Assembly: GCF_013408295.1 (NCBI RefSeq)
Contig: NZ_JACBYQ010000001.1
Location: 558,001-622,000 of the forward strand
DNA from: Psychromicrobium silvestre
Lineage (GTDB): Bacteria > Actinomycetota > Actinomycetes > Actinomycetales > Micrococcaceae
Reading direction: 5' to 3'
Length of the DNA: 64,000 bases
Of the stretch, positions 6,544-49,391 are shown in pieces (position 1 is the stretch's first letter; each line of letters opens with the position of its first letter). The position numbers and the translations under genes are program-made. The notes beneath the pieces are model-generated. The model made no database searches. It saw only the letters and a list, made by a program, of their open reading frames with translations, and was not told the origin of the DNA.

Positions 6544-6592
6544 GCGTCCGGGATACTTTGGCCCACTCTCTTTGCTCGCGATAGTGCACCAG

Positions 6593-6634
6593 CTTCGGGA
6601 TAGCCTACGGTCGCGTCAGTAGGCTATCCCGAAG
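6593..6634. repeat. Long perfect extragenic palindrome (element D)
   Basis: CTTCGGGATAGCCTAC (6593-6608) and its exact complement (6619-6634) form a 16-bp stem around a 10-nt loop; after two mismatched positions CACC/GGTG on the outside pair as well. It lies between the rpsD terminator and the DUF948 gene and has no T-tract, so a terminator role is not obvious. It could be a processing site, a protein-binding site or a dispersed extragenic palindrome. Confidence 0.6.
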
Positions 6635-6758
6635 TCGGTGGACCATCCTGAACCAGGGAAGGCTAAGGGGCATAGACCCCTGCACAGGCCAGTTCTCCGT
6701 TGTCGAGAGAACTCGGTAAGGTACTGATAGACATCAAGCACAAATTTGAGGAGGCATC

Positions 6759-17262: not shown

Positions 17263-17281
17263 TCCTTCCGCTTAGCACCTC

Positions 17282-17353
17282 CGAGTGTGGAGATCTGCAT
17301 CTTTTGAGCGCTGTTTAGCGTGCAGATCTCCACACTCGACTCTCCACACTCGA
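17282..17353. repeat. Long extragenic palindrome with tandem half-copy (element C)
   Basis: CGAGTGTGGAGATCTGCA (17282-17299) pairs perfectly with 17321-17338 (18 bp). Inside the loop CGCT-GTTT-AGCG gives a second hairpin. Immediately after, CTCCACACTCGAC is repeated once more (copies at 17328-17340 and 17342-17353, the latter lacking one base of context), leaving an extra half-arm. It lies between the convergent genes nusB and PrsW and may be a bidirectional terminator built from a repeat-family sequence. Confidence 0.65.
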
Positions 17354-28027: not shown

Positions 28028-28072
28028 AGGGCACTTAGTATCGCTTTCGATACTAAGTGCCCTGCCTTTTTC
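28028..28072. terminator. Bidirectional terminator between pyrF and the MFS gene
   Basis: AGGGCACTTAGTATCG (28028-28043), loop CTTT, and the exact complement (28048-28063) form a 16-bp perfect stem followed by GCCTTTTT. It lies between convergent genes; the plus-strand T-run favours termination of the pyr operon, and the hairpin can serve the MFS transcript as well. Confidence 0.9.
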
Positions 28073-43183: not shown

Positions 43184-44698
43184 ATGCCGCAGTATGTAAT
43201 AGCTATTGATCAAGGCACCACCTCGAGCAGGGCCATAGTTTTCGATCACGATGGCAATATCGTCTCCACCGGTCAGAAGGAGCACGAGCAGATCTTCCCG
43301 AAAGCGGGCTGGGTGGAGCATAACGCCACCGAGATCTGGGACAACACCCGCGAGGTGATTGGCCAAGCGCTCTCCAAGGCGAACCTGACCCGGCATGACA
43401 TTGCCGCCGTCGGAATTACCAATCAGCGCGAAACCGCTGTGGTCTGGGATAAGAACACCGGCGAGCCGGTGTACAACGCAATTGTCTGGCAGGACACCCG
43501 GACGCAGGACATCGTTGATCAGCTAGCCGCTGATGGCGGGGTTGACCGTTTCAAGTCCACCGTGGGCCTGCCCTTGGCCACCTACTTCTCCGGTACCAAG
43601 ATCAAGTGGATCCTGGACAATGTTGAAGGTGCCAGAGAGCGGGCCGAGGCGGGGGATTTGATCTTCGGTAACACCGATTCTTGGGTCACCTGGAACCTGA
43701 CCGGTGGCCCGGATGGTGGTGTGCACATCACCGATGTCACCAATGCCTCCCGGACCATGTTCATGGACTTAGAGACGCTTTCCTGGGATCAGTCGATTCT
43801 GGATGCTTTCGGTGTCCCGGCTTCGATGTTGCCCACGATTAAGTCCTCTTCTGAGGTCTACGGCACCGTACACACCTCGCAGTTGCTGCGGGAGGTGCCG
43901 GTGGCTGGCATCCTGGGTGATCAGCAGGCCGCTACCTTCGGCCAGGCGGCGTTCAATAGTGGCGAAGCCAAGAACACCTACGGTACGGGTTGCTTCTTGA
44001 TCTTCAACACGGGCGAGGAAATCGTTCGCTCCAAGAATGGTCTGCTCACCACGGTTGGCTATAAGCTCGGTGATGCTCCGACGCACTACGCCCTGGAGGG
44101 TTCAATTGCGGTGGCCGGCTCACTCATTCAGTGGCTGCGTGACAACCTCAACATGATCGGATCTGCTCCCGAGGTGGAGACCTTGGCCGCTTCCGTTGAA
44201 GATAATGGCGGGGTTTACATTGTGCCGGCATTTTCCGGTCTGTTCGCGCCCTACTGGCGTTCAGATGCCCGCGGTGCGATCGTCGGTCTGACCCGTTTCG
44301 TCAACAAGGGTCATATTGCTCGTGCTGCCTTGGAGGCTACGGCGTTCCAGACCCGTGAGGTGCTGGATGCGGTCAATGCCGATTCCGGTGTTCCGCTCAC
44401 CGAGTTGAAGGTCGACGGCGGTATGGTCGCCAATGAGGCGCTCATGCAGTTCCAGGCGGATATCCTGGGCGTGCCGGTGATCCGGCCGAAGGTCACCGAA
44501 ACCACCGCGCTGGGTGCTGCCTATGCGGCAGGCCTTGCGGTGGGCTTCTGGAATGGCCTGGGTGAGCTGTCCTCCAACTGGGCAGAGGATAAGCGCTGGG
44601 AGCCGCAGCTAGATGTGGCCGAGCGTGATCGTCAGCTCCGACTTTGGAAGAAGGCAGTTACCAAGTCGATGGACTGGGTCGACGAGGACGTCAAGTAA
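43184..44698 (+). CDS. glpK: Glycerol kinase
   Basis: Phosphorylates glycerol to glycerol 3-phosphate, trapping it in the cell. 504 aa, FGGY kinase. Phosphate-1 motif [13 protein letters not shown] (residues 7-19), [23 protein letters not shown], the adenosine region [17 protein letters not shown] (about 408-424) and [16 protein letters not shown]. Strong ribosome-binding site AAAGGAG. Completes the glycerol pathway with GlpF and GlpD. A nested palindrome follows 18 nt after the stop. Confidence 0.97.
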
Positions 44699-44716: not shown

Positions 44717-44794
44717 GCGCGTGAGTTCGCTTCTGCCTCTCGGATTCGCCTGTTTTTACGGGCGAATCCGAGACCGGGAAGCGAACTCACGCGC
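44717..44794. repeat. Nested extragenic palindrome, element A (left flank of DUF559 gene)
   Basis: Outer arms GCGCGTGAGTTCGCTTC (44717-44733) and its exact complement (44778-44794); inner arms CTCGGATTCGCC (44739-44750) and its complement (44761-44772) around the loop TGTTTTTACG. The whole can fold into a long two-part hairpin. A short T-run (TGCTTTT) follows on the plus strand, so it may also terminate glpK and the convergent DUF559 gene. It is related to element B, which lies in reverse orientation on the other side of the gene. Confidence 0.8.
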
Positions 44795-44799
44795 TGCTT

Positions 44800-45744
44800 T
44801 TAAGGGACGCTGCGCTTTAGGGCGCTGATCACTCGCCTGCGTAGTGCGGCTGGGCGTTCCAGGTCCGCCCATTCGACGCGGATTATTCGCCAGCCCTCCG
44901 CAACCAAAGCCTTCTCTCGGCGTCGCTCCTGGAACACCACTTCGGAGCTAGCGCCGTAGTCAAAGTATTTGCTCCGGCCGTCGAATTCCAGCAGGAGCCG
45001 TGCCTCGGACCAGCCGAGGTCGGCCCTGAAGAGCCCTGCCGTGGTCGCAAGCTCTAGCTGAGATGTCGGAGCCAGGTCCGAAACAATCAACCGAAGGCGA
45101 GACTCTCCAACAGATTCCGAGCGGCCATCTATCGCCCCCAGCACAAGCCTTGCTCGCCGCACCCCACGGCTTCCCGGGGTAGCAGCGAGTAGCCGCCGCA
45201 TGTAGGTCAAATCTGCGCCTTTTTGTAGAGCATGATCGCCCAGCACCACAGCTTGTTCAAACCCCAGGAGCCGGGCACAGTCGGTGGCCGTTCGCTCCAG
45301 ACTGGTTACCCGGAACTCTTGTCCGAGCTCATTTTGTACCAAGCATTCTTGCCGTCCCGGTATCGAATAGCGGTGCACCGTAACGTCATCCCCGAAACTA
45401 CCTCGCGACCAGCGGTAGGGGATATTAAGGTGGATTCGCTCACCCAGGCCCCAGGTTCGAAGCCCATGCAGACGAGCCGCGCTTTGATGGGTGTAGAGGT
45501 GAACACCGCCGCTCACTAGATGGTGCGCCTCAAGTTGCCACTGCGCTCGGTGCCAGGGCTCGGATCCTTCCCAGCGTTCGCGGAGGAGGTAGCCGCCTTT
45601 GCGGATCTTCAAGACGATACCGGCCGCAAGACAGTCCTGGAGCAGGAGATGATTGATCCCAGCGAGTTCGAGACTCAATCGGGTCTGGACAATGCCCTCG
45701 GGCCATCGTGCGCCGAGACGTTGCTGGAGTTTTAGCCTATCCAT
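44800..45744 (-). CDS. DUF559 / AbiEi-like nuclease-fold protein
   Basis: 314-aa protein of unknown function. The N-terminal part (residues about 1-60, QQRLGARWPEGIVQTRLSLE, VLKIRKGGYLLR) looks like the winged-helix AbiEi_4-type antitoxin domain. The middle is an AbiEi-like region (YTHQSAARLHGLRTWG, TSLERTATDCARLL). The C-terminal DUF559 region has a Vsr/PD-(D/E)XK-like core: FRADLGW (D242), LLLEFDGRSKY (E253, D255, K259), then WRIIRVEW. No cognate toxin is adjacent. Such genes are multicopy in many actinobacteria. ATG 45744 chosen; a TTG 17 codons upstream is less likely. It is enclosed by palindromes A and B. Confidence 0.72.
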   Translation of the reverse strand: MDRLKLQQRLGARWPEGIVQTRLSLELAGINHLLLQDCLAAGIVLKIRKGGYLLRERWEGSEPWHRAQWQLEAHHLVSGGVHLYTHQSAARLHGLRTWGLGERIHLNIPYRWSRGSFGDDVTVHRYSIPGRQECLVQNELGQEFRVTSLERTATDCARLLGFEQAVVLGDHALQKGADLTYMRRLLAATPGSRGVRRARLVLGAIDGRSESVGESRLRLIVSDLAPTSQLELATTAGLFRADLGWSEARLLLEFDGRSKYFDYGASSEVVFQERRREKALVAEGWRIIRVEWADLERPAALRRRVISALKRSVP

Positions 45745-45820
45745 CCCAGTAGACTGCCGATCAAATCTGGGTTCCGCTACCCCGGCATACCCCAATGTGG
45801 AAAACTCCGCAGCCCATTAT

Positions 45821-45894
45821 GCGCGAGTTCGCGGGTAACTCTCGGGTTCGCCCGTAAAGACAGGCGAACCCGAGAAGCGGAAGCGAACTCGCGC
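45821..45894. repeat. Nested extragenic palindrome, element B (right flank of DUF559 gene)
   Basis: Outer arms GCGCGAGTTCGC (45821-45832) and complement (45883-45894); inner arms CTCGGGTTCGCC (45841-45852) and complement (45863-45874) around CGTAAAGACA. Its reverse complement has the loop TGTCTTTACG, nearly that of element A, so B is an inverted copy of A. Relative to A, one inner base pair is changed from A-T to G-C on both arms and the outer stem is shortened on both arms. Confidence 0.8.
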
Positions 45895-45922
45895 GCTGGT
45901 CGCTGCTGGTCGGTGCTGGTCG
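45895..45922. repeat. Short tandem repeat next to element B
   Basis: GCTGGTCG occurs three times at about 10-nt period (starting near 45895, 45905 and 45915), directly abutting element B and before the putA stop. Meaning unknown; could be replication slippage. Confidence 0.4.
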
Positions 45923-45935
45923 CGCAGCGCGCTGC

Positions 45936-48900
45936 TTAGAGGACGGCGTGCGAGATGTTGTCGGGGTTGCCGAAACGGTGTGCCGTGATCGTGACAGCTT
46001 GCTCGTGTAGGAACGGCAGCAGTTCGATCCGTCCGGCTTCGGTGACCGAACCAGCATAGATCGCCAGATCGGGGCTACCCTGGCTGGCCGCCAGCAGGGC
46101 GCGCTCGGCGCTGCGCTCGGTGTCACCCACCAGCCGGACGCGGATGGGGCCACGGGCGGTCACCCGGGCTGCCCAATCGGCCTCGGACTCAAGCAGGAGA
46201 CTTACTCCAAGCTGGGTGAGGGCATTCCGCAGTGGGCTCGTCGGCTGCTCAGCCACAGACACCGTTACCGAGGAACCGCTAAGGTAACCTGCCGCCGTCG
46301 TACGCAATAATTCGGCAGCAGAACCAGCCACCAAACGGACCTCAACCGGCACCGGCAGGTAGCGGAAAACATTCCGCTCCACCCCGAGCGCGGAGACATC
46401 CTTGGCCACACCGAATTCTGCTTCCCACTGGCGCTGATCATCGGCGACGGAGCGCTGCAGATAGGCAAGCTGCTCGGCCGGAAGGTCGGCGGCAACGGCC
46501 TTAAGAGCTTGCTCGACGGCGGGACGCAGCTTGAGCGGGACACTCGCCTCCGGCAGTTCCCGAGATTCCCAGGAGCCCAGATGTACCAAGTAATTCGGCC
46601 CGCCAGCCTTGGCTCCTGCACCCACAGAGGAGCGCTTCCACCCGCCAAAGGGCTGGCGCTGCACGATGGCGCCGGTGATGCCGCGGTTCACATAAAGGTT
46701 CCCAGCCTGCACCTTATCCAGCCAGAGCGCCAGCTCTTCGGCATCCATGGTGTGCAATCCGGCTGTCAAGCCGTAAGCCGAGGCGTTCTGCAGCTCAATG
46801 GCTTCTTCCAGGGTTTTAGCGGTCATCACGCCCAGCACGGGTCCGAAGAACTCGGTCAGGTGGTAGTAGCTGTTCGGCCGCACGCCGGTGCGAACACCGG
46901 GGGAGTAGAGCCTGCCCTCGGTATCGAGCTTGCGCGGGGCGACCAACCAGGATTCCCCTTCGCCCAGGGTTGTCAACGCGGTCTTGAGCTTTCCGGCTGC
47001 GGGTTCAATGATCGGTCCTATCTCGGTTTCGGGGTCCTCGGGGAAACCAACCTTGAGTGAGGACACCGCATCCACCAGTTGGTTCCGGAAGCGATCGGAA
47101 TCCGCCACCGAGCCAACCAGGATTACCAGCGAGGCGGCCGAACACTTCTGACCGGCGTGGCCGAAGGCGGAGCGCACCACATCCTTAGCTGCAACATCCA
47201 GATCTGCACTAGGAGTGACGATAATCGCGTTCTTGCCGCTGGTTTCGGCCAGCAGGGGCAAGTCTGAACGCCAGGAGCGGAACAGCTTCGCCGTCTCGTA
47301 GGCTCCGGTCAGAATTACCCGATCCACAGCCGGATGGGAGATCAGGTGCTGACCAATCGGCCCCTCAGCCACATCAGCAAAAATCAGCACGTCCTTGGAG
47401 ATCCCTGCCGCCCAGAGCGCCTCCACCACAACGGCGGCGCAACGCTTGGCCTGGGGAGCGGGCTTGACGATCACCGAGCTACCCGCGGCGAGCGGGGCCA
47501 AGATGGAGCCTGCCGTAATAGCGATCGGGAAATTCCACGGTGGCGTGACCACGGTCAGCTTGGAGGGCACGAAAGTCGCCCCCTGCACCTGGTCCAGCTT
47601 CGCGGCACTCATCCCGTAGTAATTGGCGAAGTCGACGGCTTCGCTGATCTCAACATCGCCTTCGGCGAGCGTCTTGCCGGTTTCGCTGGCGGCAACCTCG
47701 ATCAGCTCACCACGACGGCGGGAAAGTTCGACGGCGGCCTTCCGCAGCAAAGCGGCACGACCCGCACCGCCAAGCGCGGCCCACTCCGGCTGCGCGGTCA
47801 GGGCGCGCTCGATCAAAACCTCGACGGCTTCGGTGCTATCAAAGACGGAAGCCTCGACCAGGTCCATGCCCAGCCGCGATTGGGGAACCTTGGAGAGCAC
47901 TTCGCGGCCCCAAGCCCGCACCACTGGCAGCGATGAATCGGAGTCGTCAGCGTTGTTAAAGCCGTTTTCGGGCTGCTCCGGGGCGCGGTCCGTCTGCTGT
48001 TTCCGGTTAGCTTCCGGAACCACTGTGTCCAGAGCCGCCAGCGAATCCAGGAATCGCTGCGTCTCGCGCTGCAGGAGTTGCGGATTCGAGGTCAGTTCGA
48101 AGACCGCGGACATAAAGTTCTCCTGGCTGGCATTCTCCTCCAGCCGACGGATCAGGTAGCTGATGGCCACATCGAACTGCTGCGGCTTAACCACGGGTGT
48201 GTAGAGCAGCAGTGAGCCGACATCCTGCCGCACCGCATCCGCCTGGTCTTCGGCCATGCCGAGCAGCATTTCGAACTCGACCTTCTCGGAGACGCCACGA
48301 CGATCAGCCAGCAGGTGAGCGAAGGCAATATCGAAGAGATTGTGCCCGGCCACACCAAGCCGCACAGCATCGGTATTTTCCTTTTGCAGAGCCCAGTCCA
48401 GGCAGCGCTTGTAGTTGGTATCGGCGTCCTGCTTGGAGGCGACGGTGGCCAACTCCCAACCGTGTAGGGCGGCATCCACCTTCTCCATGGCCAGGTTCGC
48501 GCCCTTGACCAGACGGACCTTGATGCCGGCGCCACCGGCGGCGCGACGTACTTGCGCCCAGCCGGTGAGGTCCTGCAAAGCTCCCAGGGCGTCAGGCAAA
48601 TAGGCCTGCAAGACAATCCCTGCTTCTAGCTTTTCCAGCTCAGGACGATCCAAGATTCGCTTGAAGACCGCGACCGTAAGGTCCAGATCGTGATACTCCT
48701 CCATATCCAGGTTAATGAACTTCGGCTCCGCCGAGGAAGCGGCCATTAGATAGAGCGGGACCAACCGATCGGTGATCTTCTGCACGCTCTCTTCAAAGGC
48801 CCACATGTTCAGTTGGGAAACCACAGAGGAGACCTTGATCGAAACATAGTCGACGTCGGGGCGCGCCAATAGCTCTTTCGTTCCGGCTAGACGGGCGTCG

Positions 48901-49391
48901 GCTTCCTTATCGCCCAATACTGCTTCACCGAGCAGGTTAATATTTAGCCTGGTGTGATCCTTCTTCAGCTTGGCAATTGAGGTTCCCAGCTGGCGGGGGC
49001 GGGCATCGACAATCAAGTGCGCCACCATTTGGCGCAGAATTGTTCTGGCTACCGGCACCACGGCCCAAGGCAATATGGGGGCAGCCAGCCCACCCAATCG
49101 GACGCCAGCTTTCATGAACCAGGGCAGGAAGGTAGGGGTGTTCTTGGCTAATAGGGTGAGGTTGCGGGCCGCGACTCCGAGATCTTCGGGACGGACCACT
49201 CGGTCCACGAAACCAATCGTGAAGTCCAAGCCGTTCTGGTCCTTGAGCACCTCGGCCAGCAACGCTGCCGAACTCGAAGCCTTTTTCGCGGAACTGGATA
49301 CCGGAGCATCCAACCATTTCTGAACCAAGGCAATAACGTCGTTGGCCAGATCGGCGGGGCGGGGATTGATGGGAGCAAACATTTGAGGCAT
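45936..49391 (-). CDS. putA: Bifunctional proline dehydrogenase / L-glutamate gamma-semialdehyde dehydrogenase
   Basis: Oxidises proline to glutamate in two steps: FAD-dependent PRODH barrel (about residues 60-420) and NAD-dependent P5C dehydrogenase (about 500-990). 1151 aa. PRODH shows VRLVKGANLAMEKVDA-type motifs and LLGMAEDQADAVR. The ALDH domain has the glutamate in LLAETSGKNAI and nucleophile C750 in HAGQKCSAA, and ends with GAIVQRQPFGGWKRSS. A further C-terminal region of about 160 residues is degenerate ALDH-like, as in long PutA proteins. No ribbon-helix-helix DNA-binding domain, so not a trifunctional repressor. ATG 49391 gives MPQMFAPINP; a longer frame to 49463 lacks support. Confidence 0.93.
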   Translation of the reverse strand: MPQMFAPINPRPADLANDVIALVQKWLDAPVSSSAKKASSSAALLAEVLKDQNGLDFTIGFVDRVVRPEDLGVAARNLTLLAKNTPTFLPWFMKAGVRLGGLAAPILPWAVVPVARTILRQMVAHLIVDARPRQLGTSIAKLKKDHTRLNINLLGEAVLGDKEADARLAGTKELLARPDVDYVSIKVSSVVSQLNMWAFEESVQKITDRLVPLYLMAASSAEPKFINLDMEEYHDLDLTVAVFKRILDRPELEKLEAGIVLQAYLPDALGALQDLTGWAQVRRAAGGAGIKVRLVKGANLAMEKVDAALHGWELATVASKQDADTNYKRCLDWALQKENTDAVRLGVAGHNLFDIAFAHLLADRRGVSEKVEFEMLLGMAEDQADAVRQDVGSLLLYTPVVKPQQFDVAISYLIRRLEENASQENFMSAVFELTSNPQLLQRETQRFLDSLAALDTVVPEANRKQQTDRAPEQPENGFNNADDSDSSLPVVRAWGREVLSKVPQSRLGMDLVEASVFDSTEAVEVLIERALTAQPEWAALGGAGRAALLRKAAVELSRRRGELIEVAASETGKTLAEGDVEISEAVDFANYYGMSAAKLDQVQGATFVPSKLTVVTPPWNFPIAITAGSILAPLAAGSSVIVKPAPQAKRCAAVVVEALWAAGISKDVLIFADVAEGPIGQHLISHPAVDRVILTGAYETAKLFRSWRSDLPLLAETSGKNAIIVTPSADLDVAAKDVVRSAFGHAGQKCSAASLVILVGSVADSDRFRNQLVDAVSSLKVGFPEDPETEIGPIIEPAAGKLKTALTTLGEGESWLVAPRKLDTEGRLYSPGVRTGVRPNSYYHLTEFFGPVLGVMTAKTLEEAIELQNASAYGLTAGLHTMDAEELALWLDKVQAGNLYVNRGITGAIVQRQPFGGWKRSSVGAGAKAGGPNYLVHLGSWESRELPEASVPLKLRPAVEQALKAVAADLPAEQLAYLQRSVADDQRQWEAEFGVAKDVSALGVERNVFRYLPVPVEVRLVAGSAAELLRTTAAGYLSGSSVTVSVAEQPTSPLRNALTQLGVSLLLESEADWAARVTARGPIRVRLVGDTERSAERALLAASQGSPDLAIYAGSVTEAGRIELLPFLHEQAVTITAHRFGNPDNISHAVL

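Follow-up and report, generated by a model that had tools for sequence, protein, structure and literature searches.

In Psychromicrobium silvestre, a gene for a Vsr-type (DUF559) nuclease with an AbiEi-like N-terminus lies between two copies of a long nested palindrome, and the same arrangement, with palindromes of other sequence, recurs at most of the related actinobacterial loci surveyed. The palindromes are associated with these genes, are dispersed through the genome, change in concert and co-vary with the N-terminal half of the enclosed protein. Such a palindrome-gene-palindrome unit is probably the home copy of a dispersed family that is spread and homogenised by nuclease-driven gene conversion. 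The unit was met in the window, the whole 64,000-nucleotide stretch of contig NZ_JACBYQ010000001.1 that was analysed. Its genome is here called G000 and belongs to a genus set of seven genomes, own included, among which G005 is the congener that also bears the palindrome family of the window (F1). The features concerned are given below; the neighbouring genes are presumably glpK and putA, names that were assigned by recognition of their sequence, without a search.

44717..44794, no strand: element A, an F1 nested palindrome between glpK and the DUF559 gene, which converge on it (covariance-model match G000:C1:602717-602794)
45819..45896 (core 45821-45894), no strand: element B, an F1 nested palindrome between the start of the DUF559 gene and the end of putA (covariance-model match G000:C1:603819-603896)
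44800..45795, minus strand: gene for the AbiEi-like N-terminal domain and Vsr/DUF559 nuclease, 331 amino acids from a TTG, start uncertain (ORF call, AbiEi models, family-level Vsr/DUF559/MTES_1575 matches)
43184..44698, plus strand: glpK, neighbour, whose 3' end has element A in common with the DUF559 gene
45936..49382, minus strand: putA, neighbour, with element B at its 3' end and its start at 49382 or 49463 depending on the gene call
17277..17343, no strand: lone copy of family F3; the DUF559 gene belonging to this family is G000:C2:321080-322000
6577..6650, no strand: lone copy of family F4; the DUF559 gene belonging to this family is G000:C1:169203-170183

In both A and B, an outer stem of 14 bp leads through linkers of 7 nt to an inner stem of 13 bp, closed by a loop of 10 nt; they fold with z-scores of -10.5 (A) and of -7.3 and -8.9 (the two strands of B), an equally stable structure being reached by 0/200 shuffles in each case. 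Their positions and nested architecture, first described in a sequence-only reading of the window, are thereby borne out. The opposite orientation reported in the same reading applies to the pair itself, for which the inverted alignment is the better one (89% over 57 nt, as against 77% over 78 nt for the direct match), but it is not general: among the 42 loci with matched palindromes considered below, 18 pairs are direct, 14 inverted and 10 tied, and since no orientation dominates, a mirror image is not a general feature of the arrangement. At a permissive threshold, an Rfam search of the A/B region returned only matches below gathering scores, mostly of microRNA type. A convergent terminator of conventional look at position 28046 of the window carries a T-run, unlike the F1 elements.

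The two-domain composition proposed for the enclosed protein likewise stands, its nuclease part through the family profile, the window protein alone giving a weak match to the Pfam REase model that falls below the required cut-off (E 0.023). Residues 41-194 match the three best AbiEi models, with a best E of 1.8e-7. Among 40 family members, MTES_1575 is matched in 24 and DUF559 in 21 at E up to 0.01, and a family profile (A5) run against structures retrieves the Vsr entries 1odg, 1vsr and 1cw0 at E 1.2e-4 to 1.5e-4 and 3hrl at 8e-5. The family profile also matches PvuRts1I, AbaSI and the mobile intron protein 3r3p, which we take to be the homing nuclease I-Bth0305I. Conserved in the nuclease half are E231, R235, D259, D272 and R293, of which D259 and R293 are invariant and E231 and D272 nearly invariant across the 40 proteins. 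By sequence profile, the family is thus clearly predicted to end in a Vsr-like nuclease, and extracts of one study describe the MTES_1575 nuclease domain as a Vsr-type domain (PMC3710099). A structure model predicted with two sequences was too poor for use (mean pLDDT 39), and scans of viral contigs yielded no further relatives for structure prediction. A search of 41 actinobacterial genomes, own included, with the AbiEi-DUF559 profile gave matches in 14, at most 13 per genome; the genome with 13 such matches, G179 of the same class, had matched palindromes at 3/3 loci fetched.

By a permissive test, matched palindromes are present on both sides of 42 of 55 AbiEi-DUF559 loci, namely 25/30 in the genus and 17/25 elsewhere. 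The 55 loci comprise the 30 from the genus, 21 from a phylum-wide search of 41 genomes, three from Arthrobacter plasmid records and one from an Arthrobacter MAG. Excluded from them are four loci at contig ends (L221, L227, L232 and L234) and four with no matched pair (L224, L236, L210 and L211); with these latter four counted in, the figure becomes 42/59. Two loci of one genome (L222 and L233, G150) were counted as matched, with flanks that are more broadly repetitive, and the 13 unmatched loci include five from the genus, one of which (L196) matches at a larger distance. A stricter scored test, requiring a palindrome of at least 19/33 dyad positions on both sides and a similarity of at least 25, is passed by 23/30 genus loci, the cross-locus similarity having a mean of 9.2 (s.d. 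5.5). These genus loci derive from a profile of eight proteins (A3) with 43 matches across all seven genus genomes: 31 of the 43 appear in the flank listing and make up the 30 scored loci, two pieces of one G001 gene being joined, while the other 12, mostly weak, carry no flank score, and the sample is skewed towards the best-scoring members. In that listing, L035 replaced one row that had no locus, and a G002 remnant was viewed in L154 only. The excluded locus L211 is a DUF559 relative of 30.6% identity in MT837503.1, a 6.7-kb, bacteriophage-labelled, unverified record from a human faecal sample, in which no matched pair was found. A pattern drawn from the Arthrobacter MAG locus, TCGCCGGAA, matched 3/120 family genomes and is too strict to serve as a census.

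The palindromes differ between paralogues of a single genome. A scan for dyad symmetry around the six best-scoring DUF559 paralogues of G000, three weaker matches lying outside it, revealed a different palindrome pair at each of five: F1 at the window gene, and F3, F4, F5 and F6 at the others. No palindrome pair was found at the sixth (L203, also L032; G000:C1:1486200-1487069). The protein of this sixth locus has the motif LEADS where its relatives have EFDG.

Two controls indicate how rarely other genes are enclosed in this way. In 1.2 Mb made up of three 400-kb samples from three genomes, genes of 600-1500 nt were given the same flank test as the DUF559 loci, and 8/555 passed, all eight being DUF559 genes, as against 0/547 of the others. 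Because DUF559 loci lay at the centre of the samples or elsewhere within them, the eight were expected and the informative figure is 0/547; the samples from G004 and G006 are moreover near-identical and not independent. Two DUF559 genes, G006:C1:2427102 and G004:C14:60003, were not among the eight, and in G000 one gene straddled two pieces and one weak match fell at the edge of a piece. In the second control, on loci picked for their F1 or F2 elements, 8/395 genes passed, comprising the G005 DUF559 gene and seven others (7/394 non-DUF559 genes), which means that element pairs enclose other genes too, but rarely; the comparison of 23/30 DUF559 loci with these 8/395 control genes gives a Fisher p of 2e-25. 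Single non-DUF559 genes inside F1 or F2 pairs were seen at L094, L096, L101 and L108 (G005), L124 (G000), and L150, L151 and L156 (G002), with the pairs spaced about 0.7-1.2 kb apart, seemingly more often than random spacing would give by a rough hand estimate. Integron attC sites were considered for these varied single genes between element pairs and were dropped on comparison with attC core boxes.

Beyond the home locus, blastn detected further F1 copies in the window's own genome, and a covariance model built from 27 copies finds 21 in G000 and 40 in G005, the other five genus genomes giving one marginal match (G003, E 0.02). By blastn, matches are confined to G000 and G005 among 59 genomes, own included, and F1 and the F1-type DUF559 gene co-occur in the same two of the seven genus genomes, own included. 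The length of the element is near-fixed, the best match spanning 78 nt in 58 of the 61 copies. Both sides have changed in 11 of the 27 stem pairs (7/14 in the outer stem) and pairing holds in 88.5% of cells; none of 500 shuffles attains the covariation score, and the count of pairs with both-sided change was reached by 61/500. The link between gene and palindrome had been expected to fail if the copies stood apart from DUF559 genes or if these genes consistently lacked palindromes. The former is indeed the situation of 19/21 F1 copies in G000, as most REPs likewise do not adjoin RAYTs, but most of the DUF559 genes surveyed do have palindromes, as the count of matched loci attests.

The other families are distributed similarly. 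In 400 kb of G000 there are seven F3, five F5, four F4 and one F1 copies, two flanking copies being included for each of F3, F4 and F5; F6 gave no copy at the threshold applied. The 17 copies all lie between genes, and they account for 17/29 of the long intergenic palindromes in this stretch and for 0/8 of the intragenic ones; further copies of F1, F3, F4 and F5 are scattered between the genes of G000. At L279, a near-identical pair of F5 palindromes (16704 and 17018) lies 314 bp apart in one intergenic region.

The glpK-putA junction offers a view of the same relationship across species. The DUF559 gene sits there between F1 elements in G000 and G005, while in G003 putA and glpK converge on one simple hairpin, without a DUF559 gene, and in G002 the junction (L155 2745-7746) holds four other called genes with an element of a further family, F2, at each end. 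F2 was encountered first at the putA end of G002, as a nested palindrome unrelated to F1, and occupies about 39 places in that genome (the author's count from 77 strand-wise matches). A DUF559 gene between two F2 elements was found only afterwards (L154 2863-4936), picked up by profile A3 and split by an IS3-type transposase gene, so that the prediction held. The F2 copies are near-perfect in G002 although their DUF559 gene is split.

Comparison of G000 and G005 reveals that F1 and F3 copies change in concert within a genome, those of F1 at largely unchanged positions. For 16 of the 21 G000 F1 elements, G005 has an element at the same end of the orthologous gene, and yet the mean identity of orthologous elements is 70% (16 pairs read by eye, one G000 element entered twice), as against 75% and 77% within the two genomes and 68% for random between-genome pairs. 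The unpaired centre GTAATTAC is found in 28/40 F1 copies of G005 and in 0/21 of G000, and an arm of F3 reads GTGGAG in 10/10 copies of G000 and GTGCAG in 5/5 of G005, flanking copies counted. Old positions combined with genome-wide renewed sequence point to copying rather than independent selection.

The enclosed protein follows its palindromes unevenly. Across the 42 matched loci, palindrome similarity correlates with protein identity at r 0.68 for residues 30-222 and r 0.56 for residues 222-325. In partial Mantel tests on 39 loci, three near-duplicates having been removed from the 42, the N-terminal half retains r 0.36 given the C-terminal half (0/1000 permutations), whereas the C-terminal half given the N-terminal retains r 0.05 (100/1000), permutation figures that are optimistic because related sequences are not independent. 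This N-terminal co-variation points to the AbiEi-like half as the probable specificity part of the enzyme.

A mechanism that would accommodate these observations begins with recognition of its own palindrome by the N-terminal AbiEi-like part of the enzyme, be it in duplex form, as a cruciform or as a single-strand hairpin. The C-terminal nuclease of Vsr type would then cut or nick at the palindrome, and repair using another copy as template would overwrite the one that was cut. Gene conversion driven in this way by the nuclease would spread and homogenise the family and keep its palindromes matched to the enzyme; the family would behave as a REPIN population does when a vertically inherited RAYT maintains it, but with an unrelated nuclease. 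Binding, cutting and conversion by the enzyme are deduced here from the comparison of sequences. Weighing against this mechanism are the DUF559 loci with no matched pair, the few other genes that pairs enclose, the near-perfect F2 copies of a genome whose F2 gene is split, and a G006 protein with the motif GEFGG in place of the GEFDG of its counterpart in G004, which suggests that a palindrome pair can outlast the activity of a nuclease that may be dead.

Of the alternatives, RAYT-like transposition fares best and is nevertheless unlikely. By this account the nuclease would excise and reinsert the palindromes as miniature mobile elements, the flanked gene being the autonomous copy. It would explain the dispersal of the copies and their unequal numbers, with F1 at 40 in G005 as against 21 in G000, and two comparisons of G004 with G006, which are about 98% identical in the regions compared, lend it further weight. 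A 77-bp palindrome-bearing stretch of G006 stands in place of 507 nt in G004, and between G006:C1 about 1993332-1994503 and G004:C1 about 198067-199305 the whole palindrome-DUF559-palindrome unit has been replaced, with boundaries at the palindromes. The units exchanged have different palindromes, and their proteins resemble one another more closely in the C-terminal (0.69) than in the N-terminal part (0.38); the right flank of the G004 unit still has some sequence similar to one arm of the palindrome of G006 type. Against transposition, DUF559 units keep their neighbours across species: the F3-type unit occupies one site in as many as six (G000, G002, G003, G004, G005 and G006), with differing palindromes, and this, together with the 16/21 F1 positions common to two species, implies that movement is rare. 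No target duplication was seen, although no systematic search was made, and a Vsr-type nuclease is, to our knowledge, not a known transposase. The suggestion of a mobile cassette is not supported in the sense of hopping, given these conserved chromosomal sites, the one whole-unit exchange between near-identical genomes notwithstanding.

The early comparison with REPIN/RAYT systems survives in part: the pairing at DUF559 loci, its absence from the 547 other genes and the N-terminal co-variation agree with it; hopping is not supported. To the extent that extracts of the sources describe them, RAYT genes are flanked by REPs or TIRs, as REPtrons and TIRtrons (PMC3733652), and RAYTs are single-copy, vertically inherited genes (PMC8049555). 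The present system has in common with these its dispersed extragenic palindromes, copies on either side of the enzyme gene, a set of element-specific enzymes in a single genome and vertical inheritance. The RepRanger paper, in the extracts consulted, lists an Arthrobacter genome among its tabulated palindrome counts and does not contain the term RAYT (PMC12306157). The elements here differ in their nested palindromic structure, with a core some 63-66 nt long, and the enzyme in being of Vsr type with an AbiEi-like N-terminus. Membership of the RAYT/REPtron group was rejected for G000 and G005 because neither genome has a match to the Y1 HUH tyrosine transposase (PF01797), which among the seven genus genomes is matched in G002 alone, and because inspection of the 27-sequence alignment of F1, the one family so inspected, found no conserved GTAG/CGTC end tag.

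Slightly less probable again is a binding-site system without nuclease-driven spread, in which the protein would regulate by binding DNA or RNA, or act at 3' ends, and its operators and bidirectional terminators would be the palindromes, kept alike by selection. The position of the F1 copies is in its favour, since 57 of the 61 have a gene 3' end on one side or on both (on both in 27) and only 4 are placed between two 5' ends (by gene calls from an in-house codon-bias script that miscalled the window DUF559 gene itself), as are the AbiEi-like N-terminus and the both-sided changes in half of the outer-stem pairs. However, no T-run or U-tract follows on any of the 83 gene-facing sides of F1 copies, which indicates that they are not classical intrinsic terminators; the unpaired centres and the near-fixed length, which selection for binding or termination would not need, are homogenised as well; and the nuclease residues are conserved. 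A first account of the copies as plain dispersed terminators, prompted by 15/15 copies at a gene 3' end, proved insufficient and was given up for want of U-tracts, for the concerted evolution and, above all, for the matched pairs at other DUF559 paralogues. Intrinsic terminators and terminator-embedded DNA uptake sequences likewise form hairpins directly downstream of stop codons, in many cases where genes converge, whereas F1 lacks a U-tract, is homogenised genome-wide and is tied to one gene family. Uptake sequences are far more numerous than the palindrome copies, and they were rejected on this ground, the copy number here being much too low.

A role in defence or self-recognition is quite improbable. 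The nuclease would then attack DNA according to the presence or absence of the palindrome, the genomic copies serving to mark or to titrate, and the Vsr/PvuRts1I/AbaSI-like nuclease domain, the AbiEi similarity and the genome-specific sequence dialects would all be in keeping with such a role. The N-terminal similarity is to the antitoxin AbiEi of the AbiE toxin-antitoxin system, but here the AbiEi-like part is fused to a nuclease, and an adjacent AbiEii nucleotidyltransferase toxin is absent from the window locus, where glpK and putA adjoin and no partner gene is present. F1 was not found in the phage and plasmid records (by DNA search) or viral contigs (by pattern scan) that were searched, and 20-40 copies per genome would be sparse for a self-mark.

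That A and B are ordinary glpK and putA terminators drawn from one repeat family and unrelated to the gene they enclose, the plainer explanation originally offered, keeps its account of the gene-end positions and can point to the few unrelated genes inside F1 and F2 pairs, but is scarcely credible beside matched pairs at 42/55 DUF559 loci and none of 547 other genes in the 1.2-Mb samples, families that differ between paralogues and co-vary with the protein, and the missing U-tracts.

Among enzymes, the nearest likeness is to the Vsr mismatch endonuclease, PvuRts1I/AbaSI and 3r3p, through the nuclease domain by family profile and the conserved acidic residues; we know of none of these linked to a dispersed palindrome family. 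Outside subscription papers and preprints, no published link between DUF559/MTES_1575 proteins and dispersed palindromes was seen in the literature searched. The system is judged to be new, as enzyme class, chemistry and element type are unlike those of any repeat-enzyme pair found, and it appears to work in the manner of REPIN/RAYT. Chances are evenly balanced that it represents a class of nuclease-palindrome systems, selfish or domesticated, that is widespread in actinobacteria and independent of RAYT/REPIN, and in which each AbiEi-Vsr enzyme would maintain its own long nested palindromes through cutting and repair copying, N-terminal specificity and dozens of sites shifting dialect jointly.

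The association points to an unrecognised kind of enzyme-and-repeat partnership. If this is correct, a common gene family of unknown function would gain a partner sequence and a testable function, and in these genomes many long hairpins that would pass for terminators would belong to repeat populations linked to an enzyme. The palindromes, together with the N-terminal domains paired with them, would provide a natural data set for a protein-DNA recognition code. The REPIN/RAYT way of life would then have had a second, independent origin with another chemistry, and the persistence of sequence populations within bacterial genomes would become testable in another system.
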